Source of the DNA: Biomaibacter acetigenes | GTDB taxonomy: Bacteria > Bacillota > Thermosediminibacteria > Thermosediminibacterales > Tepidanaerobacteraceae | NCBI RefSeq assembly: GCF_003691585.1 | Contig: NZ_CP033169.1 | Span: 2,542,001 to 2,606,000, forward strand | DNA length: 64,000 nt | Direction: 5' to 3' | In this document: in pieces, positions 8,571-61,598 of the stretch | Position numbering within the stretch: position 1 is the first letter of the stretch | Layout: each line of letters starts with the position of its first letter | Notes under the pieces: model-generated | What the model was told of the DNA's origin: nothing | Seen by the model: the letters and a program-made list of their open reading frames with translations, nothing else | Databases searched by the model: none | Made by a program: the position numbers and the translations under genes

Positions 8571-8607
8571 CACACCACCGTACGTACCGTCCGGTATACG
8601 GCGGTTC
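8571..8607 (-). ncRNA. Group II intron domain V
   Basis: Minus strand hairpin starting GAACCGCCGTATACCG and closing with GTACGTACGGTGG, the conserved catalytic stem-loop of group II introns. It overlaps the maturase stop codon by a few bases. Assignment is from position and stem form, not from a covariance model. Confidence 0.65.
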
Positions 8608-10039
8608 ACCAAGCTTTGCGAATTTCTTGATATCTCTTCACTAAACTCATGAGCCCTTGACCTTGCCAATAGGCGTTGTTGAGGGCTCTATTTAATACCC
8701 CTGACATACGCCAGTATCCCTTTCGGGCATTGGCAAGCTCATGGACTACCCATTCCGGAAGTTTCAAATTCCTTAGTTCTCGATATCTTGTTTTAACTTT
8801 CTTCCATTGTTTCCACAAGCACATGCGGAGTCTTCTTCTTATCCATCCGTCGAGTTCCTCAAGTTTGCTGGGTGTTTCCGATAGTGCGAAGTATCCCAGC
8901 CATCCGCCGAGGTATGTGTTTAGTCTGTCTATTCTCTGTGTTATTCCATGTCCGTTGCTTCTTGAGGTTATCTCACGGATTTTGTTCTTGACTTTGTCTA
9001 TGCTCTGTGGTGCTATTCTTATCTTGGTTGTTCCATCTTTAGTGATGTACATGCTGAAGCCGAGGAATTTCCTCTTCCAGGGTCTGTCCACTGCGCTCTT
9101 TTGCTCGTTTACTTTGAGTTTTAGTTTATTCTTCAGGAAAGCTGTTATGCTTTCCATTACCCGCGGGTACCCATCGAAGATGGGTGCCGCTCTTTTGCTT
9201 TTGACGTAGATGTTACAGTCGTCTGCATATCTTACGAATCTGTGGCCTCTTTTCTCTAGTTCTTTGTCAAGGTCGTCAAGGATTATATTGGCAAGAAGTG
9301 GACTTAGGGGCCCGCCTTGAGGTGTTCCTTCGTCGGTAATCATGACTACTCCGTTTATCATTACTCCTGCCTGTAGATAGCTGCGTATGAGCTTTAATAC
9401 ACGCTTGTCTTTTATCTTGCGAGTTACTCTGGCCATTAGTATGTCATGATTTACTCTGTCGAAGAATTTCTCAAGGTCCATGTCCACTACCCACTGGTAT
9501 CCCTCTTGAACATATTGACGTGCTTTCCTTACTGCGTCGTGGGCTCTTCGGTTGGGCCTGAATCCGTAGCTTGCTTCTGAGAATTCCGGGTCAAATATGG
9601 GTGTTAGTACTTGCAGCAGAGCCTGCTGGATTAGGCGGTCTGTGACGGTGGGGATTCCTAACAGTCTCACTCCTCCGCTGGGTTTCGGGATTTCGACGCT
9701 GCGCACTGGTTGAGGTTGATAGGTCCCTGTGAGAAGTTGTTCCTTTATCTGAGGCCAGTTTTCTCGTAGGTGTGACCGGAGGGATTCTACCGGCATGCCG
9801 TCTACGCCTGGCGCTCCTTTGTTTTCTTCTACCCGTCGCAGTGCTTTTGTCATGTTTTCTCTTGATACTGCTTTCTCCATCAGGTGGATATCATGGTCCT
9901 TCGGGGATATCTTCTCGGGTTGTGCCGGATACATACTCGGCCCTCCCTGGGGCCCTTGCGGCTTCACCGCTTCTTTCCCAGGGTAGGCCCCTTTCGGGGT
10001 TTTCTGCTGTCTTTGTATGTTTCTCGAACTTGCCACCAC
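8606..10039 (-). CDS. ltrA: Group II intron reverse transcriptase/maturase
   Basis: 477 residues. Reverse-transcriptase blocks are clear: IPKPSGGVRLLGIPTVTDR, YGFRPNRRAHDAVR, VVDMDLEKFFDRVNHD, TPQGGPLSPLLANI and the catalytic FVRYADDCNIYVKS. A C-terminal maturase (domain X) region follows (LGGWLGYFAL..). No HNH endonuclease follows, as usual for class C introns. The start is a GTG at 10039; ATG codons further in are possible alternatives. The frame is intact even though the host intron is split by an IS. Confidence 0.95.
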   Translation of the reverse strand: MVASSRNIQRQQKTPKGAYPGKEAVKPQGPQGGPSMYPAQPEKISPKDHDIHLMEKAVSRENMTKALRRVEENKGAPGVDGMPVESLRSHLRENWPQIKEQLLTGTYQPQPVRSVEIPKPSGGVRLLGIPTVTDRLIQQALLQVLTPIFDPEFSEASYGFRPNRRAHDAVRKARQYVQEGYQWVVDMDLEKFFDRVNHDILMARVTRKIKDKRVLKLIRSYLQAGVMINGVVMITDEGTPQGGPLSPLLANIILDDLDKELEKRGHRFVRYADDCNIYVKSKRAAPIFDGYPRVMESITAFLKNKLKLKVNEQKSAVDRPWKRKFLGFSMYITKDGTTKIRIAPQSIDKVKNKIREITSRSNGHGITQRIDRLNTYLGGWLGYFALSETPSKLEELDGWIRRRLRMCLWKQWKKVKTRYRELRNLKLPEWVVHELANARKGYWRMSGVLNRALNNAYWQGQGLMSLVKRYQEIRKAW

Positions 10040-14965: not shown

Positions 14966-16325
14966 GGAAAATATACTGATAGTGGATGACGAGCCCTCCA
15001 TCAGGGATATCCTGGAGGTAGTGCTCGGGGAAGCGGGATACCATGTGGAAACTGTGGGGAACGGGAAGGCCGCCCTGGATGCAATAAAAAGCCACGGCCC
15101 CTTCGATTTGCTCATTACAGACTTAAGGATGCCCGGCATGGACGGTATCGAACTTATGGAAAAGGTAAAGCAGTTTGATGGGGAAATTGAAACCATAATA
15201 ATCTCTGCTTATGCGGATATAAAACAGGCGGTGAGGGCAATAAAGCTGGGGGCTTTCGACTATCTCCAGAAAAATTTTTCCACTGATGAACTGCTGTTGA
15301 CGGTGGAAAAAGCCCTGGAGAGAAGGCACCTCCGCCAGGAAAACCGCTGTTTAAAACAAAAACTGGAAAATCGTTACAAGTTTGAGGACATTGTTTATGA
15401 AAGTCAAAAGATAAAAAATATATGTGAAGTCATAGAAAGAATAGCCCCTACCAGAGCCTCGGTACTCGTCACCGGGGAAAGCGGCGTAGGAAAGGAGGTC
15501 TTTGCCCGGGCTATTCACAAAAAAAGCGATCGGAGGGACCGCCCCTTTGTGGCCATAAATTGCTCGACCCTCCCGGACAACCTCCTGGAAAGCGAGCTGT
15601 TCGGCCATGAAAAAGGCTCTTTTACCGGGGCTGTGGCAAGAAAAATCGGAAAGTTGGAACTGGCCCAGGGAGGTACCGTCTTTCTGGACGAAATCGCTGA
15701 GATAAGCCCTTTTTTGCAGACCAAGCTGTTGAGATTTCTCCAGGAACTGGAGTTTGAACGCCTGGGCGGATTGGAAAAAATAAAGGTAGACGTGAGGATT
15801 ATTGCCGCCACCAACAAGGACCTGGTCAAGGCCATTGATTCCGGGGAGTTCAGGGAAGATCTCTACTACAGGTTAAATGTGATTAACCTGCACATTCCGC
15901 CTCTCAGGGATAGAAAGCAGGATATTCCCTTGCTGGCTCAGCTTTTTTTAAACCAGTACAACCGGGAATACGGCAGAAACATCAATTTGATTTCGATAAA
16001 GAGCCTGGAATACCTCATGGCCTACTCCTGGCCCGGTAATGTGAGGGAGCTTAAAAATACCATGGAACGGGCGGCAGCCATAGCTGACCCGAAAGACGAT
16101 ATACTTCTGCCCAGGCACCTTCCGCCGGAAATCCTGGGAAAAGAAATACCCGGCGAGGAAGAAAAAAACATGCTCAGCCTGGCGGAATTTGAAAAGCAGC
16201 ATATTTTGAATACTTTAAAACGGGTTAACTGGAACAAAAGCCTCGCCGCCCAGCTGCTAGAAATAAACCGCCAAACCCTTTACAACAAAATGAAGCAATA
16301 CGGAATTACAAAAAAAATAATGTAG
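14952..16325 (+). CDS. NtrC-type sigma-54-dependent response regulator
   Basis: 457 residues. Receiver domain (ILIVDDEPSIRD, phospho-Asp in LLITDLRMPGMDG), AAA+ domain with Walker A GESGVGKE, sigma-54 contact loop GSFTGA (Ser replaces the usual Ala), Walker B GGTVFLDEIAEI, and a Fis-type helix-turn-helix at the C-terminus (NKSLAAQLLEINRQTLYNK). The ATG at 14952 overlaps the kinase stop; a GTG three bases earlier is in frame but too close to the GAGGTG site. Two good -24/-12 promoters in the next 4 kb (16367, 20109) are its probable targets. Confidence 0.94.
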   Translation: MGQIKENILIVDDEPSIRDILEVVLGEAGYHVETVGNGKAALDAIKSHGPFDLLITDLRMPGMDGIELMEKVKQFDGEIETIIISAYADIKQAVRAIKLGAFDYLQKNFSTDELLLTVEKALERRHLRQENRCLKQKLENRYKFEDIVYESQKIKNICEVIERIAPTRASVLVTGESGVGKEVFARAIHKKSDRRDRPFVAINCSTLPDNLLESELFGHEKGSFTGAVARKIGKLELAQGGTVFLDEIAEISPFLQTKLLRFLQELEFERLGGLEKIKVDVRIIAATNKDLVKAIDSGEFREDLYYRLNVINLHIPPLRDRKQDIPLLAQLFLNQYNREYGRNINLISIKSLEYLMAYSWPGNVRELKNTMERAAAIADPKDDILLPRHLPPEILGKEIPGEEEKNMLSLAEFEKQHILNTLKRVNWNKSLAAQLLEINRQTLYNKMKQYGITKKIM

Positions 16326-16342
16326 AAATATTAGACATTGAT

Positions 16343-16367
16343 ACCCTTTTTAAAAGGGATTTTTTTT
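16343..16367 (+). terminator. Terminator after the response regulator
   Basis: CCCTTTT/AAAAGGG hairpin followed by AT7. It lies 18 bases after the regulator stop codon and directly ahead of the sigma-54 promoter, separating the regulator from the downstream operon. Confidence 0.65.
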
Positions 16368-16383
16368 GGCATTTGTTTTGCAT
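16367..16383 (+). promoter_or_regulatory. Sigma-54 (-24/-12) promoter of the AtuA-like/DUF4387 operon
   Basis: TGGCATTTGTTTTGCAT: GG at 16368-16369 and GC at 16380-16381, exactly 12 bases apart, matching the TGGCA-N-TTGCA consensus. Transcription would start near 16393, about 46 bases before the GTG start. The encoded activator just upstream is the obvious regulator. Confidence 0.75.
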
Positions 16384-16438
16384 TGTTAAAAGGTGCCGGC
16401 ACAAATTTTTTCATAATAACTTTACGGAGGGAGAACAA

Positions 16439-32463: not shown

Positions 32464-34072
32464 GACTGTCGACAAAGTAGCTGTCGACAGTCTTTTTTGT
32501 AAAAAGGGTATAAAAATGATCATTTTTATAGTAAAATTAAAGAAATAAAAACATACGGTGGGGCGATGAAATGTTAACGAAGAAAAGACGAGAAATAATA
32601 GAGCAGATAGAATTAGTAAGCATTGATAGCTTAGTACCTAAAGACCATCTCCTCAGGACAATAGAAGAAAGCATCAACTTTAACTTCATATATAACGAAG
32701 TAAAAGACCTATACAGCGAAAATACAGGCAGACCCAGCATTGATCCAGTGGTATTAATAAAACTGCTCATGCTCCAAGCACTGTATGGAATCCGCTCTAT
32801 GCGCCAAACCATCAAAGAAGCAGAAGTCAATATGGCTTACCGCTGGTTTCTAGGATATGGGCTCCAAGAAAAAATACCTCACTTCTCGACTTTTGGAAAA
32901 AACTATGAACGGCGGTTTAAAGAAAGCGATCTATTTGAAAAGATATTCGAACGAATATTAAAAGAAGCCATAGAGTGCGGGTTTATCAAAGAAGACGCGG
33001 TATTTATCGATGCCACCCACATAAAAGCCAGTGCCAATAAGAATAAATACATAGAGAAAGTTGCAAAAAAGCAGGTACAAAAATACAAGAAAGAACTTTT
33101 AAAAGAAATCAACGCCGAAAGAGAAGCCAACGGCAAAGAACCGTTTGAAGAAGATGACGATGAAGCTAGCGGCGATGCCGAAGGAGGAAACAGCTCCACC
33201 AACGGAAAACGAGTAAAGATAAGCACCACCGATCCTGAAAGCGGCATATTCCAAAAAGGAGAAAAAGAGCGCTGCTTTGCCTACACGGCTTCTGTAGCCT
33301 GCGACCGCAACAACTTCATCCTTGGCTTCAAAATAGCACCTGGAAATGTACACGACAGCCAGGTATTCTCCGATCTTTTTCAAGAAGTAAACGATAAATT
33401 TCCCGAAATAAAAGCAGTAGTGGTTGATGCAGGCTACAAGACCCCCGGCATATGCAGAGAAATCATTGAAGCGGAAATACTTCCTGTCATGCCATATAAA
33501 GGCCAATGACCAAAGATGGCTACTTTAAAAAGAGAGAATACGTATATGACGAATATTATGACTGCTACATATGCCCTAACAACCAAGTATTAAAATACAG
33601 CACCACCAACCGGTCAGGATACCGGGAATACAAGAGCGATCCACAAATATGCCGGGAATGCCCCATGCGTTTGAGATGCACACAGAGCAAAAACTACACG
33701 AAAGTGGTAACCCGGCACATATGGGAGCACTATGTGGAAATAGCAGAAGATATAAGGCACACCGAATTAGGCAAAGAATTATACAAGATGCGCTGCCAGA
33801 CCATCGAGCGGGTATTTGCCGATGCCAAAGAAAAGCATGGTATGCGTTATACGAATCTAAGAGGCTTGAGCAAAGTAGGACATTATCTCACGCTTCTTTT
33901 CGCATGCATGAATTTAAAAAAGCTGGCCATGTGGAAGAGAAAACGTGGGATGTTTCCACCGGCAGCCCCTGCTTTGCATTCATTTTTCTTTATGATTTTA
34001 AAATTTTTTGCTTCAAATAAAAAACCGCTTTTAGGTTGTGCGTTCTAAAAGCGGTTTTTGTCTACAAGCTGA
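32464..34072 (+). mobile_element. IS1182-family insertion sequence
   Basis: About 1.6 kb with one transposase gene. The inner ends show imperfect inverted repeats: GACTGTCGACAAAG at the left and, on the other strand from the right, CTTGTAGACAAAAACC. The left end also holds ACTGTCGAC/GTCGACAGT; the right end holds an AAACCGCTTTT/AAAAGCGGTTT hairpin that overlaps the transposase stop. Flanked by 25-bp palindromic direct repeats. Confidence 0.7.
32571..34048 (+). pseudogene. IS1182-family transposase, one frameshift
   Basis: The first frame (32571-33509) has the IS1182/DUF772 N-terminus (RPSIDPVVLIKLLMLQALYG), the catalytic DATHIKASANK and DAGYKTPGICREI; the second (from about 33500) continues TKDGYFKKREYVYDEYYDCY, a Cys-rich CRECPMRLRC zinc-ribbon-like part and ERVFADAKEKHGMRYTNLRG with the last acidic residue. 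One A added to the AAA at 33498-33500 gives ..PYKRPMTKDG and restores a ~490-residue protein. Again a homopolymer indel. Confidence 0.85.
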
Positions 34073-34627: not shown

Positions 34628-34945
34628 CTATGAAGTAAAATATTTTATTATAACGTTTTTTTGTTGCACATAAGTGGGATGTCCGGCGCGAATCCTTTTG
34701 ATAAGATAGTCCAGCCTTCGAAAAAAAGCATTGATCCTGGCGATTAAAGCCGTGGGCTTAACGGGCTTTTTCACATAATCGTCGGCACCTATTTCAAACC
34801 CGTGGACTTCGTCGAAATCTTCGCTTCTCGCGGTCAGCATAATAATCGGCACCTGCGACACCTTCCTTATCTCCCTGCATACTGTCCAGCCGTCAAACTC
34901 GGGAAGCATGACGTCAAGGAGAATACAACCGGCGGCGCCGTACTG
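34628..34945 (-). pseudogene. Response-regulator receiver fragment (copy A of a duplicated chimera)
   Basis: Encodes the middle of an OmpR-type receiver: ILLDVMLPEFDGWTV (phospho-Asp), VPIIMLTARSEDF, IGADDYVKKPVKPTAL (conserved Lys) and then a foreign tail. It lacks the N-terminal strand and the DNA-binding domain. At about 34945 it joins tail-to-tail with an unrelated plus-strand gene fragment. The same chimera is at 46915-47187. Confidence 0.75.
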
Positions 34946-35280
34946 GCGGATAGCAGCACTACCGCCACTTCCGGCATTCAGAGACCGGCGATGGATGTGG
35001 CGGGCAAAATGATGCCCGGCAGGATGGGCGGCCTGATGAAAATGGGCATGTTCGGGCCTGCACAGGTCGGTGATAAGATCGATTTCAAAAACAACATGGA
35101 AGATATCACAAAAGCTCTTGTGGAGCAGGGTATCATCACACAGGAAATTGCAGATAAAATGACGGCCTATATGGAAGAAAAAGCTGCCGAAAGAAAGCCG
35201 AAATGGAAAAAGTCCAAAATATGACGGAAGAAGAGTGCAAGGCGTACTTTGAAAACAAGAATACTATTCTAGCTATGTTA
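34946..35280 (+). pseudogene. Fragment of a helical secreted-type protein gene (copy A)
   Basis: The plus strand encodes SGIQRPAMDVAGKMMPG, MGGLMKMGMFGPAQVGD and DITKALVEQGIITQEIADK then a Lys/Glu-rich helix, broken by a one-base deletion near 35198 relative to copy B (47188-47634). No start codon of its own: the open frame upstream is antisense to the receiver fragment. Confidence 0.6.
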
Positions 35281-46921: not shown

Positions 46922-47187
46922 GTTAATACATTATTTTCGGTCTTTCCCCTGTCCAGCCTTCGAAAAAAAGCATTGATCCTGGCAATTAAAGCCGTGGGCT
47001 TAACGGGCTTTTTCACATAATCGTCGGCACCTATTTCAAACCCGTGGACTTCGTCGAAATCTTCGCTTCTCGCGGTCAGCATAATAATCGGCACCTGCGA
47101 CACCTTCCTTATCTCCCTGCATACTGTCCAGCCGTCAAACTCGGGAAGCATGACGTCAAGGAGAATACAACCGGCGGCGCCGTACTG
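46915..47187 (-). pseudogene. Response-regulator receiver fragment (copy B of the chimera)
   Basis: Same receiver piece as 34628-34945 (ILLDVMLPEFDGW.., ADDYVKKPVKPTALIAR), then a different short tail ending at 46915. Joined at the same base to the plus-strand fragment. Confidence 0.75.
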
Positions 47188-47634
47188 GCGGATAGCAGCA
47201 CTACCGCCACTTCCGGCATTCAGAGGCCGGCGATGGGCGCGGCGGGCAAAATGATGCCCGGCAGGATGGGCGGCCTGATGAAAATGGGCATGTTCGGGCC
47301 TGCACAGGTCGGTGATAAGATCGATTTCAAAAACAACATGGAAGACATCACAAAAGCTCTTGTGGAGCAGGGTATCATCACACAGGAAATTGCAGATAAA
47401 ATGACGGCCTATATGGAAGAAAAAGCTGCCGAAAGAAAAGCCGAAATGGAAAAGGTCAAAAGCATGACCGAAGAAGAACGCAAGGCCTATCTGGAAAGCA
47501 AGAAAGAATCAAAACCGGAAAAAGGTGCGACGGCTGATCCTCTGCAAAAACTTGTCGATAATGGGACGCTGACACAGGAACAGGCTGATGCGGTTTCAAA
47601 AGCATTGTTCCAGATCACATACAAGCCGGACTAA
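47188..47634 (+). pseudogene. Fragment of a helical secreted-type protein gene (copy B, longer)
   Basis: Encodes SGIQRPAMGAAGKMMPGRMG, ALVEQGIITQEIADKMTAYM, ERKAEMEKVKSMTEEERKAY, and DPLQKLVDNGTLTQEQADAV before a stop at 47634. Two similar modules (a DxL/xxQGxITQEqAD pattern) resemble repeats in Clostridial exported proteins. The 5' end is missing; it is fused head-on to a receiver fragment, so it has no promoter of its own. Confidence 0.6.
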
Positions 47635-49940: not shown

Positions 49941-50951
49941 TTAACCAGCTACCATACTGGTCATCATCCCTCCAGGAAAAGACTCCTCATTAACTATATG
50001 ATTGTAATCCCTATCATACAAAATGTATTCCCCTCTAGCAGTTGGAATTATTATTACATCGGCGGTTTGACCGGGGGCTAAAGTTATCCCGTTCTTTTCA
50101 TAGGATAAATCCGAATCCGCTGACACCAGCGGATAACTGTCTTCTGCTATTATCCTTCCTGTTAACCCACCGAAATAGAAAGTATGTGCCTCATATCCTG
50201 CATTTGCTATTCTTAAAAGGACCCTGTCATTTACTCTGCAGTTTATTCTGGAACCATATGGTTGACTGGAATTGTTGTCGCTATCTATTGTATGAGGATA
50301 AACTCTACCATTTAATATCCAATTATTTGGTTTAAAATCCAGCATATTATAATTTTTTTCAGGCACAACATTCTCATGCATTGTGGTGTCTATTTCACCC
50401 ATAACCAATACCTTTTCCACATCATAATTCGAGTTGGTTCCCGCACCATAAGCGGTTTTATAGTTACTATGACCTGGCATGTTATATCCTACCGGTTTTA
50501 TAACGATAATGCCGTAAACACCCATTTGTATCTGTTTTTCACTCTTTACTCCACTTTCATAAAGATATATACCGGGCTTTTTAGCCTGGAATTTATATAT
50601 CAATCCCTTTGGCAAAAAAATACTTCCCCTGTCTACATAGTCTGTAAAAGCTACTAATTCGCCATTTATATATTGGGGTTGAACAGGTCTTGAATTTCCA
50701 GCAGGCCATTCCTCAACCATGACTCCTTCTATACCAGGAAACATTAGCCCCACCGGTTCGCCTATCTGTTTTATATTAAGAAAACTATTACTCAATCTAA
50801 TCCTTATATTGTCATTTACTTTCGCCTTTATTGTTGGGCCGGGGAGCCTGGGACCAGTAGCAAGCGTAGCCAGTCCCCAGAAAGGAATATTTTGATTATT
50901 TAATGTTACAGTGCCTCTCTTCACCCATAAACTGAAAAAAAGTGTAGCCAT
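49941..50951 (-). CDS. Multicopper-oxidase-like cupredoxin protein, all copper ligands lost (paralogue 3)
   Basis: 336 residues, two cupredoxin domains: LPGPTIKAKVNDNIRIRLSN (domain 1 start) and PHTIDSDNNSSQPYG..VNDRVLLRIANAGYEAHTFYF (domain 2). Positions that carry copper ligands in active enzymes are replaced: YLYESGVKSEKQIQMG in place of Y-H-C-H, and GEYILYDRDYNH at the end. It ends FPGGMMTSMVAG like its neighbours. No signal peptide or membrane helix. A structural subunit seems likely. 4 bases after paralogue 2. Confidence 0.82.
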   Translation of the reverse strand: MATLFFSLWVKRGTVTLNNQNIPFWGLATLATGPRLPGPTIKAKVNDNIRIRLSNSFLNIKQIGEPVGLMFPGIEGVMVEEWPAGNSRPVQPQYINGELVAFTDYVDRGSIFLPKGLIYKFQAKKPGIYLYESGVKSEKQIQMGVYGIIVIKPVGYNMPGHSNYKTAYGAGTNSNYDVEKVLVMGEIDTTMHENVVPEKNYNMLDFKPNNWILNGRVYPHTIDSDNNSSQPYGSRINCRVNDRVLLRIANAGYEAHTFYFGGLTGRIIAEDSYPLVSADSDLSYEKNGITLAPGQTADVIIIPTARGEYILYDRDYNHIVNEESFPGGMMTSMVAG

Positions 50952-50955
50952 ACTT

Positions 50956-52131
50956 TCACTCCTTCCCTACAGGCTGACTTAATACCCCGACATCTGGACT
51001 CAGAAAACCGGTCGGGTATATGGAAATCATAGTCATCATTCCTCCCGGAAAGGCGCCCCAATTTGTAATCTTAGGCTCTGAGTGAGAGTGGAGCATGAAA
51101 TGATACTCTCCTACTTCGTTAAAAGATACTACACCTTCCGGTATCTCACCCTTTTCTCCCAAATACGGACTTCCACTCCACATAGTCCAGCCCGCCTCTC
51201 CTATGCCTAGATTTCTTCGATTTGGGATTATAGTTGGTATTGGATTATCCAGAGTATACCCTAACCCAGTCCACTGAAATATCTGATCATAAGTTTGCCC
51301 CGGACCTACTAAAACGGTAAAACGTTTAAAGGACCTATCCCTGGCTCCATTTTTCAACAGCCTTCCATCCATAGCTATTATTCTGGTATGATTGCCATGA
51401 GGGTGTAATGGATGACTGTCAATCCCCGCACCAATATACCTTATCAAAACCTTTTCTGTTGGCTCTGCCATCACCATAGCCCCATAAGGTTGACTGGGCA
51501 AATAGGGTGCATTATCAGGCAGCATTGTATCGGGAGCACATCGTCCGTTCATAGTCCAGTAACGAGGATGGTGTTTACTAATCATATACGGTTTTCCTTC
51601 AATAACTGCTTGATGAAGACTGGGGTCAATTTCTGAAAATATTATCAGATATTCCCTGTCAAATTCCGTATCAGTACCGCTGCCATAGGCGGTCCTGCTG
51701 GTATTTTCATCGTAATCTTCCGGCCTTACCACAATCCCTCCATACAATCCTAATAATACTTGCTTGTGAGGATTGGTTCCACTTTCGTAAATATAGGTTC
51801 CGGGACGGGTTGGTGTAAAAGTATAAGAAACGGTCCCCCCATTGGAGGAAGCATAATTCACAAAGGAAATTAAATTTCCACCACTGTATTGAGGTTTAAC
51901 AAATTGAGAACCCACTTTAACTCCTGTCTGGCCCGGCAGGAAAACAGATACAGGTTCAGGCAGGTTGTTTGTTAAATTTATAGTAACGGCTTCACCTTGT
52001 TTAACTATTATAGGAGGACCCGGCAACTGAGCCGGTTCAGCTGCTCCTTTGGAGTAACCCCAAAAGTATATGCTTTGGCCATCCGGAGTGCTCATATAGC
52101 CTTGCTTTGCCCATAAATTTATTACCGCCAT
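50956..52131 (-). CDS. Multicopper-oxidase-like protein with domain-2 copper ligands only (paralogue 2)
   Basis: 391 residues, two cupredoxin domains. Domain 1 has YIYESGTNPHKQVLLGLYGG (ligand His/Cys lost). Domain 2 keeps DSHPLHPHGNHTRI (HxxHxH) and GEYHFMLHSHSEPKITNWG (HxH without the Cys). So it offers the two HxH motifs that in multicopper oxidases come from the C-terminal domain, but no type 1 site. N-terminal MAVINLWAKQGYMSTPDG has no signal peptide. Ends near FPGGMMTMISIYPTGF. Confidence 0.85.
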   Translation of the reverse strand: MAVINLWAKQGYMSTPDGQSIYFWGYSKGAAEPAQLPGPPIIVKQGEAVTINLTNNLPEPVSVFLPGQTGVKVGSQFVKPQYSGGNLISFVNYASSNGGTVSYTFTPTRPGTYIYESGTNPHKQVLLGLYGGIVVRPEDYDENTSRTAYGSGTDTEFDREYLIIFSEIDPSLHQAVIEGKPYMISKHHPRYWTMNGRCAPDTMLPDNAPYLPSQPYGAMVMAEPTEKVLIRYIGAGIDSHPLHPHGNHTRIIAMDGRLLKNGARDRSFKRFTVLVGPGQTYDQIFQWTGLGYTLDNPIPTIIPNRRNLGIGEAGWTMWSGSPYLGEKGEIPEGVVSFNEVGEYHFMLHSHSEPKITNWGAFPGGMMTMISIYPTGFLSPDVGVLSQPVGKE

Positions 52132-52144
52132 TCTTCTCCCCCCT

Positions 52145-53149
52145 TTATACTTCTAAAACATTTATTTCTGTCATCATTCCGCCTGATGGAATCCCATTGT
52201 TAGTGTTCCTTTGCAGACTTCTATTATATAAAATGTATTTGCCTGCATCCGGCAGTGTTATTATTGCATCTACAGTTTGGCCTGGAGCCACATATACTGC
52301 ATTCCTCCATTGACTTAAGTCTTCTCCATTTAATCCTTTTAGCTGCTTTGCATCCAATCCTATTACTTTAAAAGGAATGCCTGTTATCTGAATGGAATGA
52401 TTTTCAAAACCTAAATTCACAAACCTCAGCAATACTTTTTCATCGGTGAATCCTTCTATATAGGCAGAGTAAGGTTGCGAAGGAAATGAAGGATCATTTG
52501 GCGGTTTTACTGTGTCCGGATAGGCTCTGCCATTTATCATCCAGTACTGAGGACAATAATCAGTCCAATCAAAAACTTGAACATTGGCTACTAAGTGGTG
52601 AGGTCGTGCATCCATTTCTGTTACAAATATAATAGCTTCCCTGTCGTATTCAGTAGAAATATCATTATATGCAAACTTTCTTCCCGTATAGTCTGGATCC
52701 TTTTCTATCAAAGGTCTAACTATCAAGGGGCCTACCATTCCCATTTGTATATGCTCTACCGGTTCAAAATGGCAGTGGTACATATAAGTGCCCGGGTCTA
52801 ATGGTTCGTAATAGTACTCAAAATTTCTTCCTACCGGCACCGAGATAGAAGCTTCAGGTACTCCATCCCATAATGATATTTGGTTGGGAAACCCGTGCCA
52901 GTGGATTGTGTGAGTATCATCCAAATCCGGTCTTTGAGGAAAACCCAAATTTGTTAAAGTTAGATAAATTTCATCACCTTCGTATACTTCTAACAATGGT
53001 GCAAGTAAAGTTGCTTTTCCTCTATAGCTAAACACTTCATTTTCAGGCACATCGGTTATGTCACAGAAACCAAATATATAATGAACAGTGCCATCGGGCA
53101 TGTTTATCCACCCGTCAGTGGCACCATATCTTTTCTTTATAACAGCCAC
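52145..53149 (-). CDS. Multicopper-oxidase-like protein with domain-1 copper ligands (paralogue 1)
   Basis: About 334 residues from a GTG at 53149, six bases after AAAGGGGTG; ATG codons further upstream lie inside the preceding gene. Domain 1 keeps THTIHWHGFPNQ (HxHG) and YMYHCHFEPVEHIQMGM, giving HCH plus His and Met of a type 1 site. Domain 2 has lost its ligands (ENHSIQITGIPFKV and GKYILYNRS). This is the mirror image of paralogue 2. Ends IPSGGMMTEINVLEV. No signal peptide. Confidence 0.85.
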   Translation of the reverse strand: MAVIKKRYGATDGWINMPDGTVHYIFGFCDITDVPENEVFSYRGKATLLAPLLEVYEGDEIYLTLTNLGFPQRPDLDDTHTIHWHGFPNQISLWDGVPEASISVPVGRNFEYYYEPLDPGTYMYHCHFEPVEHIQMGMVGPLIVRPLIEKDPDYTGRKFAYNDISTEYDREAIIFVTEMDARPHHLVANVQVFDWTDYCPQYWMINGRAYPDTVKPPNDPSFPSQPYSAYIEGFTDEKVLLRFVNLGFENHSIQITGIPFKVIGLDAKQLKGLNGEDLSQWRNAVYVAPGQTVDAIITLPDAGKYILYNRSLQRNTNNGIPSGGMMTEINVLEV

Positions 53150-53165
53150 TTGATACACCCCTTTC

Positions 53166-56100
53166 CTAGGCCATATACTCATCGGCACCAATGTCATAGC
53201 CTGCGCCCTGCGGTCTTGGATTGTCATCAAAATCAGTGTTTGGTGCAAAATAAGTAGTCGTGCCATCAGTTATAGAACTTACCCCCTGGTCAATGGCAGG
53301 AGAACCACCAGTTATGTGATAATTTCCCAAAATCTCCGGAACTACAGTTACAATTTTTACCGATATAAAATCCGGTTCCATGTTGAAGGCTACAGCTGAA
53401 AGTTTAATATTGTATTCTTCTACAAACAGCGGATCCGATACAATATTGTTGCTTCCACCGCCATAAAGATTTGTCAGAATGCAATATACTGGATTAAAGG
53501 TCTGGTTGGTTCCATATACTTCCAAATCTATAACCGTTACCGGCTCACCATAATTTCCAATTCCCCAAATTCCCCCGGTTCCACCGTTCAAAGTCTGATC
53601 ATAGATTCCGGCTCTGTTATCCCAAAAAATATTGTTGAATAATATAGGATTGCTAAAATTATCAGACCCTGGTGGGAGTACGGCCTGGAATGCTGCACTA
53701 TTGAGTTCACTGACAAGGCCTGCTCCGTGGGCCAGCCTATCACTATCTTCGGCTGTAGCTGTAGTAATGTTTTTAGCTATAGTATTGTTTACAATGACAA
53801 CATTTGAAGCATCATCCAGGGCTATTCCTCCGCCTAAATCTGTAGAAACATTATTTACTATCATGTTGTTATATATGTTAATTCTATAGTCAAGAGGCTG
53901 TAATAATCTTAATCCTCCCCCGTCATCATTGGCCACATTACCTCTTATCAGGTTGTTATATATATCAACTTCTCCGGAACCTCTGGTCAATACAGCCGGT
54001 GGTACAGGCTGCTCTCCGCCTATGAATATTCCTGCCCCTTCATCAAAGGAATTGTTAAATTGAACTATATTATGATGGATCTTTCCCCTCCTGCTCAGGC
54101 CAAAATGTGAAATACCTCCACCGTATTCAGCAGAATAGTTTCCACATATAAAGTTGTATTCAATGGAATAATCATCGGCCCCATTAAATATTCCTATACC
54201 GCCTGCCAAACTAATGCCGCCGTTATTTAGAATTTGATTATGGCTTATGGTTATATTGGAATTGTAATTATTACCTGCATAGGCCTTTCCAATAGTAATT
54301 CCTCCGCCAAATCCTCCACCATTGCTCTGTATTACATTGTTGCTTATAACAAGATAGTTACAGTGGGCATTGATATAGATTCCTCCTCCGTCTTCTCCCC
54401 TTGCTCCCGTTATCTTAAACCCGTCAATTTGAGGTCTAAAGCCGGATGAAAACCGGTTTTCCTTAGCTACAACCGTAATTACTTGCCCTCTGCTTATCTC
54501 CTTGACCTGACCCGGATCCACCAGCTCCGGTCCGTCAAAATCAATACTATCAAGCTTTGCCAGCCATTGATCTAGATAAGATAAGAAGAACCTGCCATCT
54601 ATAACGGAACCGATTACCGGATTATTGTTCGGGTCTAATCCTCCCGGCCCCAGGCCCTGAAGCTTCACATTCTTGTACAGGATCGGACTTTCATAAAATG
54701 TCCCTTCATGTACAACTATGATGGTTCCGTCTGGTGCATTATCTATAGCATCTTGAATCGTGGTATAATCCCCGGTTCCATCTTTTTTTACATGAAGGAT
54801 ATCTGGCCAATAAATATTGTTCTTGCGAACATGGAAGGTGATGCCATTTATACTCCTGTTACCCAGGGCATTGGTTACTATCAATTGGGCAGGTCCTGTG
54901 GTTGTGAAGCCTGGAGGAATTTTTGCCTCAATACTTGTAGGGGTCCAGTCAATAATATCAATTTCCACACCATCTAAAGTCACCTTCCCGGAGCTGCCAA
55001 ATCCTCTCCCGTAAATAGTAAAGGTTCTATCCATGTCATTTAAACTATCTGCATCTGCTTCAACTCTGCTTAGCTTAAATACCTGCGGAACATCATCTTT
55101 CAGGTTGCATTGAGGTGGTTGTGCAAATTGGGCTCCACCTACTTCTCCAGTAAACGCTGTGATTGGGAATAATGCTACATCTGCATAAGTGGTTTTTCCC
55201 GGCCATACATCAAACACCAATATCAGTGATTGGTAATTTGGATTATATAATGGGTTGGGACGGTCCGGGTCTCCAGGATCATTTCCAACCACTAAATACA
55301 TCCCCGGAACAACTCCCGACGGTATGGGAACATTCCGTGTATAAGTTGACGGCAGCAAAACTTCGAAAACCCCATTTAAATCCGAATGGACCGTGGTAAT
55401 CAGCTTTCCTTTAAAATCCCTTATTCCAACCGGAGTATTTGGTATCCCCCTCTTTTCCCCAAAATATATCCTGCCAGGGTCCGTTTCTATATTCACATCA
55501 TCCAATAAGAAACCTACTATTCTTCCCGGCACCGGTACATCTGTATACAGGAAGAAATCTGCCGTAGTATTTCTGCCCTCTATAACTTTGACTATCTTTT
55601 TATAGATATCTATTAACCCGGGAGTTTCCGGCGGCTCATAGTAAGGCGGCGGTGTCATAAGGTCTTTTTTGTCCCGGGCCCATTCATCTATACAGCCGGT
55701 AGCGGAAATCTCTTCCTTCAAGCCTCGTGCCCTAGAAGTTATGGTTGTATCTATAAAATATTCATCTCCCTCGCCGGTATTTACGGAACCCGTTTGGTCT
55801 ATTACCTTATATCCGGCTGGCGGTACTACCTCCACTATATAAGTGCCACTCGGTAATGGTTCAAAAGCATATCTTCCGTCGAACACTCCAGGCCTGATTT
55901 GATTTGATATATTGGGGACTTCCAAACAAGGTACAGGATTATTATCCGCATCCGTACAGCCTGTAGGATGCTGCCATGCATCGGTGGTCACCGTGCTAAT
56001 CAGCTGTCCCTGAACTATTTGCCCGTCTATTTCTTCAGTGGCATAAAGATTTACCGTCACATTGGGTATCCCGGGTTCATAATCTTCGGCTGCTGCCATC

Positions 56101-57659
56101 CTTGGATCCGTTTCATTTCTCATGGTGGCATAATAAACCATACCTGAAATTCCGCCGTTTTCCGCCGAGCCGTAAGCCTTTTTACCCCAGTCAATCTTAT
56201 TGGTCTTGGCAGCCCAGGTTAACTCCGCCATAGTCAGTGCTCCCTGCTCTGTTATAGGTGGCTTCTGTGCAGGGTTGCCATAATCCGGTATGGCTGTTCC
56301 CCCGGTTTTTTTAAACCTGGTGAAACCGACTTCAGCCACTGCAAAACGCTCTAATTCAAATACCTCGTTAAACAGATATTTTCCTTTCATATCAGATATG
56401 GTCATATATTGAATACTGCCATCTTTAAATCTTGTAAACATTTCGACATTTGGTATCCCTGTATCTCCAGGTTCCGGTTCAGCGTCTTCGTTCTCGTCAT
56501 AAAATACATCGCCTTCAATATATCCGTACCATCTCGGTATGCCTATATCCCCCATATTTACCGTTTGCCCTGCTGCCACCTGGACTGTACGGAAAGAAAT
56601 AATATAGTCCAAAGGTTCATCCCATATGGCCATTTGATATATGCCCGGCGGTACGTTTTCTATTGTAAAGGTACCATCAACATTTCCTCTTCCCGTATAT
56701 ACCTGCTGGTCATTTGCCCCAATGTCCGTAAGGGCAATCCAGGGTCTTTCCACGGGTCTTCCTAAAGTTAAAGGTCTAAAAGGTGGTACAAATTCTATAA
56801 CTGTCATTATCCTGCCGGTTATGGTTCCCACTTCTGAAGGAGGCTTTACTTCAAACTTCATGGGTTTCACAAAACCTATCCAAACTAATGGAACCTTAAA
56901 CCCTTCCCTCGGGCTATATCCATCGTTGCCTTCTTCAATCCATACATCGATTTCATGAGTTCCTTCAATAGTGGTAGTTTGTATCCAATCCGTTCCATCC
57001 GGCGGTATTGCCTGAACTGCATATTTCCCGGGCGGAATATTGTCTATCAAGGCCAATCCATTTTCATCTGTAAGAACAACTCCTCCTGTATCAGGTATGG
57101 GAATTGGGTTTCCTGAAGAATCGAACACTATATCCCCATTTATATCCTTCTCGTATTGGGTTCCTAGTGGATTCCCAAAATAGTCTACGGTTACTTCACC
57201 GACAGCATCGCTAATTACTACCCGAAACCCTTTTAATCCACGTTCCAGGGGTATATCATCTTCCCCATTTACAGGGTGATTGTCTTCAAAAACACGGACC
57301 CTTATTTTTGACAGCGGCAGTGGATTTGGATATAGTTTTACTTCTACAATAGTATCATCACCCGGCAGCACCGTCACCCAATTGCCACCCATCTTATACC
57401 CGGGTGCCAGAACAGAAATTATATATTTTCCCTCGGGTATTGTCACGCTTGCTTGAGAAGTTGCACTCTCTCCCGTCAAGATTACAGGACTGTAACTTTC
57501 TACCGGTTTTAATGATGGAAACAAAGATGGATCTCTGCTATTCTCAGGGAGTTCCACTTGAGGGTCTCCTACATTGTTTAAATTGATAATATACTTAAAC
57601 CCATCTATTAAAATGTCATTAACGTCTTTAACAATAATGGTCACGCTTCCGTCAGCCAT
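53166..57659 (-). CDS. Very large beta-rich protein: Cna-B/carboxypeptidase-regulatory repeats, IPT/TIG, parallel beta-helix
   Basis: 1497 residues without a signal peptide, starting MADGSVTIIVKDVNDI. About residues 20-860 hold some seven Cna-B/SdrD-like sandwich domains (repeated IPPGKYAVQAIPP, VPPGIYQMAIWDE, PSGTYIVEVVPPAGYK). Residues ~880-960 form an IPT/TIG domain (FTIYGRGFGSSGKVTLDG). Residues ~965-1490 are a right-handed beta-helix (HVKKDGTGDYTTIQDAID, many GGGIxI turns), ending YDIGADEYMA. It starts a cluster with three multicopper-oxidase-like proteins, only 16 bases from the first. It may be a scaffold of a spore-coat or surface layer (inference). Ribosome site GGGGAGGTG. Confidence 0.88.
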   Translation of the reverse strand: MADGSVTIIVKDVNDILIDGFKYIINLNNVGDPQVELPENSRDPSLFPSLKPVESYSPVILTGESATSQASVTIPEGKYIISVLAPGYKMGGNWVTVLPGDDTIVEVKLYPNPLPLSKIRVRVFEDNHPVNGEDDIPLERGLKGFRVVISDAVGEVTVDYFGNPLGTQYEKDINGDIVFDSSGNPIPIPDTGGVVLTDENGLALIDNIPPGKYAVQAIPPDGTDWIQTTTIEGTHEIDVWIEEGNDGYSPREGFKVPLVWIGFVKPMKFEVKPPSEVGTITGRIMTVIEFVPPFRPLTLGRPVERPWIALTDIGANDQQVYTGRGNVDGTFTIENVPPGIYQMAIWDEPLDYIISFRTVQVAAGQTVNMGDIGIPRWYGYIEGDVFYDENEDAEPEPGDTGIPNVEMFTRFKDGSIQYMTISDMKGKYLFNEVFELERFAVAEVGFTRFKKTGGTAIPDYGNPAQKPPITEQGALTMAELTWAAKTNKIDWGKKAYGSAENGGISGMVYYATMRNETDPRMAAAEDYEPGIPNVTVNLYATEEIDGQIVQGQLISTVTTDAWQHPTGCTDADNNPVPCLEVPNISNQIRPGVFDGRYAFEPLPSGTYIVEVVPPAGYKVIDQTGSVNTGEGDEYFIDTTITSRARGLKEEISATGCIDEWARDKKDLMTPPPYYEPPETPGLIDIYKKIVKVIEGRNTTADFFLYTDVPVPGRIVGFLLDDVNIETDPGRIYFGEKRGIPNTPVGIRDFKGKLITTVHSDLNGVFEVLLPSTYTRNVPIPSGVVPGMYLVVGNDPGDPDRPNPLYNPNYQSLILVFDVWPGKTTYADVALFPITAFTGEVGGAQFAQPPQCNLKDDVPQVFKLSRVEADADSLNDMDRTFTIYGRGFGSSGKVTLDGVEIDIIDWTPTSIEAKIPPGFTTTGPAQLIVTNALGNRSINGITFHVRKNNIYWPDILHVKKDGTGDYTTIQDAIDNAPDGTIIVVHEGTFYESPILYKNVKLQGLGPGGLDPNNNPVIGSVIDGRFFLSYLDQWLAKLDSIDFDGPELVDPGQVKEISRGQVITVVAKENRFSSGFRPQIDGFKITGARGEDGGGIYINAHCNYLVISNNVIQSNGGGFGGGITIGKAYAGNNYNSNITISHNQILNNGGISLAGGIGIFNGADDYSIEYNFICGNYSAEYGGGISHFGLSRRGKIHHNIVQFNNSFDEGAGIFIGGEQPVPPAVLTRGSGEVDIYNNLIRGNVANDDGGGLRLLQPLDYRINIYNNMIVNNVSTDLGGGIALDDASNVVIVNNTIAKNITTATAEDSDRLAHGAGLVSELNSAAFQAVLPPGSDNFSNPILFNNIFWDNRAGIYDQTLNGGTGGIWGIGNYGEPVTVIDLEVYGTNQTFNPVYCILTNLYGGGSNNIVSDPLFVEEYNIKLSAVAFNMEPDFISVKIVTVVPEILGNYHITGGSPAIDQGVSSITDGTTTYFAPNTDFDDNPRPQGAGYDIGADEYMA

Positions 57660-58060
57660 TATAGGTCTACACCTCCCCTTAAAATAATCAAGTCCACTTT
57701 ATTGCTCTTTTATTGAAGGCCATTGGCTTATCTTCTTTGTCGGTTACTACATAATATGATAATAAAATTATAATGAGTTACATCGATTAGAGTGAATTTA
57801 AACGGAAATAATTTAGGCGAAATCATTTTTGGGTCGCAAAAACCTTCGCGGTGTGTTCCGCGTTGACAAAACTTTAATGAATCCCAAGTGTGGATAAGGC
57901 ATCACTTTATTGGCTGGCAGCAGACTTTTCCAGAGCCCAACCGAAAAGCACTATCATGCAGGGTGGGCTAACCGCCAACACTGCCGATGACAATACCTCC
58001 TCAGGAAGGTTTTACGCCAAAGAAGTAGCCCACCACTAAGGGTGGGCTACTCGCTATCTT
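57660..58060. other. Intergenic region with mutually exclusive stem candidates
   Basis: 400 bases with no gene. Its right half (57900-58055) looks structured. GGTGGGCTA occurs at 57962-57970 and 58041-58049, and its complement TAGCCCACC sits between them at 58026-58034, so the middle arm can pair with either side. A GGCGGTTAGCCCACC-type context and several small inverted repeats add to this. No known RNA class was recognised, and the strand is not clear. Confidence 0.4.
58024..58051. terminator. 11-bp stem-loop (possible bidirectional terminator)
   Basis: AGTAGCCCACC, loop ACTAAG, GGTGGGCTACT. Only a weak T stretch follows on the minus strand (TTCTTT), so terminator function is uncertain. 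Confidence 0.45.
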
Positions 58061-58375: not shown

Positions 58376-61300
58376 TTAAAGTTTGCCCGATTTTTCCAGC
58401 ATTCTCTTTATTATGACTGCAGCCTGAGCTCTGGTGGCACTGTCACCGGGAGCAAAAGTGCCGTCAGGATTTCCGTTCATGAGGCCCAGCGCGTCGGCCA
58501 GCCTTACATAGCTTCGGGCCCAACTGTTTACAGCACCCTCATCCCTGAACTTAACTTCGGATGTGGTGTATATGTCACTCAATTTTTTGCCGGTCACATA
58601 TGAATAAGCCTTGACAATTATCACCGCCATCTCCTGTCTTGTGATTTTCTTTTCCGGCGCAAAATGGCTGGCATCAACACCAGAAATTATGCCTGCCCTG
58701 GCGGCGCCCATAACGGCGTCTTTATACCAAGCCTCATCGGACACATCGATAAAATTGCTTTGGGCACCCTGCTCTTTGATATTGAGCGCCCGGGCTATCA
58801 AAGCGGTAAATTCCGCTCTCGTGATGCTTCTTTCGGGAGCAAATTCGTTTTGCGATACTCCTTTAATGATATGCTTTGCAGCCATCAGCTCTATATCGTA
58901 TTTAGCCCAGTGAGAAGTAATATCTTTAAACGTCTTGTTGTATTCCATAACCGCATATTTTGAAAAATGTTCGGTCTCAAAAGTAATTCCTTTATCGACG
59001 GCCTTCCCTCCGACATAATCCCATCTGTGGGTGGCTTCATTTAACCAGTATACTCCTACCTTGTTGATATCGAGAACTTTCTTTGCATCGTATTTCATTG
59101 TAACCGTCACCGGTTTGGCAAATTGCCCTATCTTTTTATGACCGGAATAGATCTCAAACTCAAATATTTTCGATACAGGAGCAGCTCCACTCGTAGCCTC
59201 TATATCCTTCGCCTCAAAATCCGATTCATTGACAGTCAATCTCAGGCCGCCATCTTTTTCCACCCCGCCGCCTGAGGCTAAAAAATCAGCATCCATTTTA
59301 AATTCAACGTTATTTGATTTTATAACTATTCCCCTGTGGGCTGACAGAACTTTATCCAGCGTTTTTGCATCCATTTCAACTTCTACACTGTCTACGGCAT
59401 CTTGAGTGGTTACATCAAGGGTAACATCGCTTTTATCCAGCGACTTTAATTCCTTTTCCACCAGATCGGGGGATATTTTTACCAGCATCTTTATTCTGCC
59501 GGAATCATCTTTTGTCTTGATTATTTCATTTTGCTTCGGCTCGGCAGTGCTTCCAGCCCCTCCTGATCCGCCGGAGCCCCCCGAAGTCAAACCACCATCG
59601 TCCGTACGGTTGATGGTGTAGCTGTAGACGCCTACATCGCTTGTCACACCATTTTTAAAGGATATAGCCTTTATGGTGACGGAACTGCTGATGGTAATGG
59701 GCGTCTGGTACAGGAGGGATGAGGTAGTCGGTTCCTCACCGTTCAGAGTATAATATATTTTTGCATCCCGGGTGCCGCAGGTCAAAGCCACAGTTTGGGA
59801 GCTATTATACGTTCCCGGCGCCAGGCTGGCCACCGGCTTTTGCGGCTTAAAAGTCATGTAGATTGGCCTTGAGCTGATGAATTCGGTATTCTGGCTGCCA
59901 TAAACATATTCATCAGCATATAATGAAAAATAACCCGCATCGGGCAAAACTATATCAAGATTCCCGGAACCGTAGACCATATCCACCACAGTATTATCGA
60001 TATCCGTCACCAAAAGCCATCTATTATTATCAAAATCATATCTGTCGACAAATACCTGAACCGCCCCGTAAACCTCCTGACTTACTGTGTTATTATAGGC
60101 TTTGGCCATGATCTCGCCCGTTATCCTGCCTTTGGTGTCCGGGTATGGAGTGTCGGGCACTATTTCCAGCCTGGGAAGGTTGAAGGCCCGGTATCCATTT
60201 ACCAGCCCAAAACCAAATTCCGTATCGACGCCGGGTTCACCCAGGTCGATGGCGCTTTCCATTATGGTTTTCTCTATATCTTCGTTCGATAAGGACTCAT
60301 CGCCGGCTTTTAACAGCGCCGCCAGCCCGGACACAATGGGCGCGGCCTGTGAGGTGCCCGACTCGTACTCATAATTACTGTTAAGATATGTACTGATAAT
60401 TCCCACTCCCGGGGCTGCCACATCCACCTCATCGCCGGTATTGGAAAAATCTGCGATTATAAAGCCCGTATTGCTATACCAATCCACGGCCCCCACGCCC
60501 AATACGCCGCTGTACGCCGCAGGATAACCGACGGGCGAATCATATTTCTTGTCATTCTGTACGATGTCCAGGTCCCCGGGCTCATCGGTTGTCCAGTGGT
60601 TGCTTTCGTTTCCTACGGCTGCCACCATAATGACACCTTTTTCCAGCGCATACTGGATGGCCTCATATTCGATCTGGCTGAAAGCATCCACCGTTTTCCC
60701 ACTTTCATCAACTATGTATCTTGACCGTTCAAGGCTCATATTTATTATATCGGCTCCGTGATTTACCGCCCACTTAATTCCTTCTATAATTTTCCCGGAA
60801 TCTCCTTCGCCGTTCGCATCGAGAACCTTTACCGGCATTATTTTTACTCCGCTGGCTGCGCCGGCGATCCCTATAGTATTATTGGCTATAGCCCCGATAA
60901 TCCCGGCCACATGGGTGCCGTGGCCGTTATCATCCTCCGGAACACTATCGCCATTCACAAAATCATATCCGGGGACGATGCTCCCGGCAAGATCAGGATG
61001 GTCGCTGTCAATACCGGTGTCCAGCACAGCCACCGTCACATCTTTTCTCCTATCCTCGCTCACCTTTTCCCATGCCTTCTCCATCTCAGTAGCTAAAATC
61101 CACCATTGATTATTAAATTCTGCATCATTGACCGCGTTTTGCGTTTTATAATCTTTTATTCCATATTTATCGTCGGATCTGTATGTATCGGCTATCTTAT
61201 AAATATACACCGGTTCGACATATTCAATATTTGGGTCCTTTTTCATCCTTTCGATGGCCTCAAAAACATTTTCCCCGGGGCTCAAATCAATGGTTTTTAC

Positions 61301-61519
61301 CGTATAACTCGATTCCGACCCGGAGGCTTTAAGGGAAAATCCCTTTTCATAAACTGTGTCAGGCTGCCCTTTATACTTCACCATCAATTTATTGGGCACA
61401 ATTCCTGCAATACCGCTGTTATGGGTATTTGCTAAAACAGGCGCCGAAAAAACTTCAAACAAAATCAGTGTGAAAATTACTACCGGTACTAGCACGAATT
61501 TTTTAAAAAAATAGTTCAT
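58376..61519 (-). CDS. SLH-anchored subtilisin-like serine protease (S8)
   Basis: 1047 residues from the ATG at 61519 (AAGGGGG six bases upstream). Signal peptide FFKKFVLVPVVIFTLILFEV.., prodomain with SPGENVFEAIERMKKDPNIE, then the S8 catalytic domain: VAVLDTGIDSDHPDL (Asp), DDNGHGTHVAGIIGAIANN (His), SGTSQAAPIVSGLAALL (Ser). After a beta-domain and a CHB_HEX_C-type repeat (ALTCGTRDAKIYYTLNGEEP) comes a Gly/Ser linker and three SLH modules (FKDITSHWAKYDIELMA, FIDVSDEAWYKDAVMGAARA, FRDEGAVNSWARSYVRLADA). It is exported and bound to the cell wall, acting in surface proteolysis or S-layer turnover. Confidence 0.94.
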   Translation of the reverse strand: MNYFFKKFVLVPVVIFTLILFEVFSAPVLANTHNSGIAGIVPNKLMVKYKGQPDTVYEKGFSLKASGSESSYTVKTIDLSPGENVFEAIERMKKDPNIEYVEPVYIYKIADTYRSDDKYGIKDYKTQNAVNDAEFNNQWWILATEMEKAWEKVSEDRRKDVTVAVLDTGIDSDHPDLAGSIVPGYDFVNGDSVPEDDNGHGTHVAGIIGAIANNTIGIAGAASGVKIMPVKVLDANGEGDSGKIIEGIKWAVNHGADIINMSLERSRYIVDESGKTVDAFSQIEYEAIQYALEKGVIMVAAVGNESNHWTTDEPGDLDIVQNDKKYDSPVGYPAAYSGVLGVGAVDWYSNTGFIIADFSNTGDEVDVAAPGVGIISTYLNSNYEYESGTSQAAPIVSGLAALLKAGDESLSNEDIEKTIMESAIDLGEPGVDTEFGFGLVNGYRAFNLPRLEIVPDTPYPDTKGRITGEIMAKAYNNTVSQEVYGAVQVFVDRYDFDNNRWLLVTDIDNTVVDMVYGSGNLDIVLPDAGYFSLYADEYVYGSQNTEFISSRPIYMTFKPQKPVASLAPGTYNSSQTVALTCGTRDAKIYYTLNGEEPTTSSLLYQTPITISSSVTIKAISFKNGVTSDVGVYSYTINRTDDGGLTSGGSGGSGGAGSTAEPKQNEIIKTKDDSGRIKMLVKISPDLVEKELKSLDKSDVTLDVTTQDAVDSVEVEMDAKTLDKVLSAHRGIVIKSNNVEFKMDADFLASGGGVEKDGGLRLTVNESDFEAKDIEATSGAAPVSKIFEFEIYSGHKKIGQFAKPVTVTMKYDAKKVLDINKVGVYWLNEATHRWDYVGGKAVDKGITFETEHFSKYAVMEYNKTFKDITSHWAKYDIELMAAKHIIKGVSQNEFAPERSITRAEFTALIARALNIKEQGAQSNFIDVSDEAWYKDAVMGAARAGIISGVDASHFAPEKKITRQEMAVIIVKAYSYVTGKKLSDIYTTSEVKFRDEGAVNSWARSYVRLADALGLMNGNPDGTFAPGDSATRAQAAVIIKRMLEKSGKL

Positions 61520-61598
61520 GTGCATCCCCCTTGTACATGTTTTATAAATTAATACCACAAAAAAAATAAAAATCCTCCTCGGACTTTGTTATATTTTG

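Follow-up and report, generated by a model that had tools for sequence, protein, structure and literature searches.

The three tandem multicopper oxidase (MCO) genes of this locus divide one set of copper ligands between two of their products: MCO1 carries ligands in its first domain only, MCO2 in its second domain only and MCO3 in neither, and the division is fixed in all 19 genomes found to have the full trio. The sequences make it quite probable that the trio forms a heteromeric oxidase with a single active centre. With somewhat less confidence we favour a more specific reading, namely an obligate heterotrimer with one trinuclear centre built from two gene products and with a third subunit devoid of catalytic function, an arrangement that would be fixed in many families of spore-forming anaerobes. 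Such an enzyme would be a living, unfused intermediate on the way from homotrimeric two-domain oxidases with three centres to the six-domain ceruloplasmin and MnxG with one.

A four-gene block encodes the three paralogues

The window (the whole stretch of 64,000 nucleotides that was analysed) carries the trio in a block on the minus strand. The first gene of the block (53166..57659) encodes a protein of 1497 aa, here called the ~1500-aa protein, with SdrD_B, carboxypeptidase-regulatory-like, TIG and right-handed beta-helix domains. It is followed by MCO1 (52145..53149, 334 aa), MCO2 (50956..52131, 391 aa) and MCO3 (49941..50951, 336 aa), all two-domain cupredoxin proteins that match Pfam Cu-oxidase_3 above its cut-off. 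MCO1 starts with GTG at 53149, which has a good ribosome-binding site, AGGAAAGGGG, ahead of it. This start was chosen because homologues start at the same residue; a longer frame from an ATG at 53266 overlaps the upstream gene, is unsupported by homologues and was rejected.

Immediately downstream of MCO3, on the same strand, lies a gene for a YmaF-family protein (PF12788; 49570..49914, 114 aa with 14 His). Its association with the block is uncertain because it is not conserved beside the block in other loci. Across the loci compared, no conserved neighbours were seen outside the four-gene block, YmaF occurring in the window only and a Mn catalase neighbour being confined to Moorella and its relatives. 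Elsewhere in the window, a subtilase with S-layer homology domains and a signal peptide is encoded upstream of the block on the same strand (58376-61558). A near-identical pair of plus-strand ORFs (34802-35224 and 47044-47634), about 12 kb apart and sharing their first ~130 codons, marks a duplicated segment. Mobile elements, named by sequence appearance only, lie at 7215-8375, 8606-10039 and 32571-34048, and comprise an IS110-like transposase, a group II intron-type reverse transcriptase and an IS1182-like transposase in two ORFs.

The copper ligands are split between MCO1 and MCO2

Domain 1 of MCO1 contains the motifs HTIHWHG and YHCHFEPVEHIQMGM, which supply both a type 1 copper site (H80, C126, H133 and M138) and trinuclear ligands (H83, H85, H125 and H127); its domain 2 is ligand-free. 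MCO2 has trinuclear ligands in domain 2 (H243, H245, H348 and H350, in the motifs HPLHPHG and LHSH), and all ligands of its domain 1 are gone in the window, where the type 1 Cys is replaced by Ser (YESG). MCO3 of the window has no copper-ligand motif, and hence no complete copper site, in either domain. An earlier note on this DNA had assigned the ligands in just this way, to domain 1 of the first paralogue, to domain 2 of the second and to neither domain of the third, and the assignment is correct.

Twelve ligand positions were then scored in homologues by alignment on a complete single-chain relative. All eight domain 1 positions, and none of the four in domain 2, were occupied in 18 of 18 MCO1 sequences. 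The four domain 2 positions were occupied in 19 of 19 MCO2 sequences, which lack the type 1 set, and 20 of 20 MCO3 sequences had zero complete pairs. Isolated, unpaired His residues occur at single ligand positions in domain 1 of some MCO2 and in some MCO3 sequences. Intact loci thus have two HxH motifs in domain 1 of MCO1 and two in domain 2 of MCO2, with MCO3 lacking them; the type 1 set of MCO1 domain 1 is invariant, and domain 2 has none in any paralogue. Since the twelve positions behave alike across 18 MCO1, 19 MCO2 and 20 MCO3 sequences, the split is not due to chance. The same split, sought in homologous clusters, was identical in all 19 genomes with the full set, and the non-complementary ligand sets by which the earlier note proposed to judge its reading were found in none of them.

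The trio is kept together in at least 11 families

A survey of 398 genomes of the phylum with MCO2 (E <= 1e-20) gave matches in 20, and 17 of these, the window included, had three matches. Two further complete trios came from a class-level search (G413) and from a genome collection (L018, Candidatus Fermentithermobacillaceae), bringing the total to 19 genomes in at least 11 Bacillota families; Moorella stamsii, M. sulfitireducens and M. mulderi are among the named carriers. The order ~1500-aa protein, MCO1, MCO2, MCO3 is identical in all 19 genomes; in one (G089) the block is divided between two contigs. No fusion of the trio's MCOs was seen in any carrier. In the window's own class the block is present in the window genome only and absent from a sampled genome of the same genus, a patchy presence that points to horizontal transfer or to repeated losses.

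Cu-oxidase_3 matches were confined to the cluster in 15 of 18 genomes with the trio, the window genome among them. As the trio supplies the sole matches in these 15, the family offers no other protein there to complete the site. Most carriers are likely to be anaerobes, a point against an enzyme that reduces O2.

The nearest structures are type C two-domain oxidases

The predicted model of MCO1 had a mean pLDDT of 70.7, and that of MCO2 was poor (pLDDT 44), so the fold search was made from MCO1. In Foldseek, the type C oxidases 3g5w and 2zwn ranked first. VIA-align gave Z 17.3 and rmsd 5.0 for 3g5w and Z 17.4 and rmsd 4.8 for 2zwn over residues 2-334, with other MCOs within 1-2 Z units. The same two structures were also the top matches of the MCO1 and MCO2 sequence profiles. 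Two-domain oxidases are trimers whose trinuclear centre is formed from residues of two protomers, and in type C it is the N-terminal domain that holds the type 1 copper (PMC13151041).

The profiles of MCO2 match the nitrite reductases 5zl1 and 3wia as well, and the fold is shared, which would fit a copper nitrite reductase-like protein with type 1 copper in domain 1 and a single type 2 copper between subunits. In known nitrite reductases, domain 1 contributes two His and domain 2 one. The trio, however, keeps eight His, four per half-site, arranged in HxH pairs and including an HCH motif, as in trinuclear oxidases; its closest chains are type C oxidases; and the NCBIfam model Cu_nitrite_red scored 33.6 bits against a cut-off of 296, far below it. 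We regard a nitrite reductase as the least probable reading considered, with hardly any weight.

Single-chain relatives retain the complete ligand set

The MCO1 profile also found single-chain relatives of 507-558 aa in the same phylum (L104, L105, L107-L113, L006 and L070), which came to light in a second draw of the phylum whose sample was largely the same as the first. These proteins are homologous along the length of MCO1, have the type C layout with long insertions in domain 2 and hold 12 of 12 ligands in nine of nine cases; in L104 the motifs are HTIHIHG, YHCHHEASEHVQMGM, PFHTHG and AHNHDDYKVTNNG. At L104, the one locus examined for it, no ~1500-aa protein was seen beside the gene. Among complete proteins, the single-chain family is the one most closely related to the trio.

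A tree of 57 sequences recovered four clades, one each for MCO1, MCO2, MCO3 and the single-chain group (SH-aLRT 99-100). MCO2 and MCO3 were sisters under a midpoint root, but the root and the sister relations are insecure because of the long branches between groups. Most simply, a complete ancestor would have been duplicated, with complementary loss in the two copies, and a second duplication would then have yielded the inactive MCO3.

Domain conservation mirrors the ligand split

Pairwise identities were computed over 14 genomes (13 for MCO3). Mean identity in MCO1 was 77% for domain 1 compared to 59% for domain 2, and in MCO2 it was 73% for domain 2 compared to 59% for domain 1; the two domains of MCO3 had 48% and 52%. 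Domain 1 was the more conserved one of MCO1 in 78 of 78 genome pairs and domain 2 that of MCO2 in 77 of 78, the pairs sharing ancestry and hence not being independent trials. Conservation therefore mirrors the ligand split, the ligand-bearing domain being the better conserved one.

MCO3 evolves faster than its neighbours (mean column identity 46% compared to 65-67% for MCO1 and MCO2) and is broken in L018. Both observations would fit an active oxidase made of MCO1 and MCO2 alone, for example as a 2:1 or 1:2 trimer, with MCO3 in a structural or copper-handling role outside the ring. Yet MCO3 is present in every carrier in the same neighbour order, and a ring built from just MCO1 and MCO2 would still have a third position to fill. 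MCO3 distances also track those of MCO1 and MCO2 (r = 0.88 and 0.86), although linked genes would do so anyway. We consider a place for MCO3 outside the ring unlikely, and prefer MCO3 as a ring-closing subunit.

Broken loci include a natural knock-out

One genome, G067, has lost MCO2 and the large protein, with the MCO1 reading frame still open (L062, 7658-8689) and MCO3 adjacent. Its MCO1 motifs read HTIYWEG and YHCYFETVEHLQMGM: three of the four trinuclear His are lost (H83Y, H85E and H127Y) and all four type 1 ligands are retained. This is the pattern that a shared site predicts. The chance of hitting three of the four His was P = 0.045, given that 26 of 106 otherwise invariant positions are altered, and the case is a single event on a long branch. 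The MCO1 of G067 is possibly a pure blue-copper protein.

That such a protein persists, with its type 1 site kept and its trinuclear His lost, could be taken to mean that the trio is no oxidase at all, MCO1 being a blue-copper electron carrier and MCO2 and MCO3 structural relics. Against this, every other carrier has all eight trinuclear His unchanged, four in MCO1 and four in MCO2. Because neither a pure type 1 protein nor a relic would retain invariant trinuclear His, we give this explanation very little credence.

Other loci are broken in different ways. In a fragmented assembly (G189), MCO1 and MCO3 are broken and MCO2 is missing, with the domain 1 ligands of MCO1 still present, a case that weighs against a shared site; MCO3 and a truncated large protein remain in G383; and only a decayed MCO3 fragment remains in G111 (L106). 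No further intact natural knock-out was found in the order of G067 (1 genome) or in the classes of G036 and G083 (10 and 22 genomes).

A proposed heterotrimer with one shared centre

A homotrimer of this class has three centres, each with its cluster where domain 1 of a subunit meets domain 2 of its neighbour. We propose a heterotrimer of the type C fold in which MCO1, MCO2 and MCO3 would each occur once in the ring. Domain 1 of MCO1, with the type 1 copper and half of the trinuclear ligands, would meet domain 2 of MCO2, with the other half, to form one complete centre; given a type C ring, this is the only interface able to hold a full set. The remaining two interfaces would be ligand-free, with MCO3 closing the ring. 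Electrons would enter at the type 1 copper of MCO1 and travel along its His-Cys-His segment to the shared cluster, where O2 would be reduced. Given the ligand split, none of the paralogues could form an active homotrimer if a centre requires HxH pairs of both domains. We infer the physical complex, its 1:1:1 stoichiometry and its oxidase activity from these features.

The fixed split, the mirrored conservation, the existence of complete single-chain sisters and the combined losses in G067 together support the suggestion of the earlier note that the paralogues form a hetero-oligomeric oxidase. The note knew of no description of such an arrangement, and we likewise found none in the open-access literature, outside which most subscription journals lie; searches there for heteromeric or split multicopper oxidases, and for spore or Moorella multicopper oxidases, returned nothing relevant.

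The large protein and a possible spore setting

The ~1500-aa protein is 54-72% identical across carriers and always lies upstream of MCO1 in intact loci, which makes it a fixed partner of the trio. In L045 its gene has an in-frame TAA (6186-6194, ACT TAA AAA ATG) between halves that are intact and in the same frame, pointing to a broken gene or a sequencing error. No signal peptide was found in the four block proteins, and N-terminal hydrophobicity was low across loci compared to 3.14 for a secreted protease of the window.

The region upstream of the block (57660..57790, minus strand) has a strong ribosome-binding site, GGGGAGGTG, and, ~99 bases ahead of the start codon, a CATATTATG element of the CATANNNT type, which we take to be like the -10 element of the sporulation sigma factors E and K. 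The window has the CATANNNT half only, at -99, and the element is weak. CATANNNT was present in 10 of 17 upstream regions compared to 2.7 expected from shuffles. The pattern AC-N15-17-CATANNNT, the form expected of sigma K-type promoters, was found upstream in 6 of 17 loci compared to 1 of 88 other long ORFs of the same loci, the pattern having been picked post hoc. The sole control ORF with the pattern was the Mn catalase (PF05067) gene that adjoins the block in Moorella (L056).

This gene, of the CotJC type, lies directly upstream of the block in the Moorella group (L056, 2103-2789; L057, 15305-15991), and further loci of the group have it too (L059, 15943-16695; L063, 11687-12373). CotJC itself belongs to the coat and may act as a catalase (PMC3533761). 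The spore protein SpoIVA (PF09547) was dropped as support for a spore role: it was present in 19 of 20 first-survey carriers, and it says little because 336 of the 398 sampled genomes (84%) have it, so it does not discriminate carriers from others. Upstream of the block, L055 has proteins resembling NTTRR-F1 domains, below the cut-off of that model, and L051 has a protein with a copper amine oxidase N-terminal domain and a weak cytochrome c7-like match (15612-16436).

The complex may be a spore-surface enzyme held by the ~1500-aa protein. Because the promoter pattern was chosen after inspection, we rate the spore location itself as only somewhat more likely than not.

Comparison with known multicopper oxidases

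The type C oxidases, such as the blue copper oxidase of Nitrosomonas europaea (3g5w) and a metagenome laccase (2zwn), share with the trio a common fold, the type 1 copper in domain 1 and the four HxH motifs, with trinuclear half-sites in domains 1 and 2. They form homotrimers with the whole set in each chain, whereas in the trio the set is divided over two paralogues and the third has none; this lack of a complete set in any one chain sets the trio apart from them. The single-chain relatives likewise hold all twelve ligands in one polypeptide. Subunits could be exchanged with these complete proteins of the same phylum, and the sufficiency of a single centre can be put to the test.

The spore-coat laccase CotA is a single-chain, three-domain monomer. 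It lacks a signal peptide, as does the trio, for which a spore surface is possible, but it has its complete site in one polypeptide in place of a split one. In the manganese oxidase MnxEFG of Bacillus spores, several gene products make up one spore-associated multicopper oxidase; MnxG is its sole multicopper oxidase, and MnxE and MnxF are proteins of ~12 kDa without known homologues (PMC5622069). MnxEFG thus combines one complete MCO with two small non-MCO subunits, whereas all members of the trio are MCO paralogues of 334-391 aa. The trio points to an enzyme that uses O2, and may be bound to spores, in bacteria that are mostly anaerobic.

The accepted scheme derives six-domain oxidases of the ceruloplasmin type from a triplicated two-domain unit in which a single trinuclear centre survived (PMC3600357). 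Ceruloplasmin, hephaestin and MnxG have six cupredoxin domains in a ring with a single remaining centre, as is predicted for the trio. Their triplicate is fused in one chain, in contrast to the three two-domain genes here, and the type 1 copper of the trio lies in domain 1 of its two-domain unit. Loss of centres has so far been seen only inside fused proteins; here it seems to have occurred between separate genes, which opens the order of events to study. The trio would provide a clear case of a homomer becoming an obligate heteromer by complementary loss, and its enzyme would stand midway between the simple laccases of bacteria and large proteins like ceruloplasmin.
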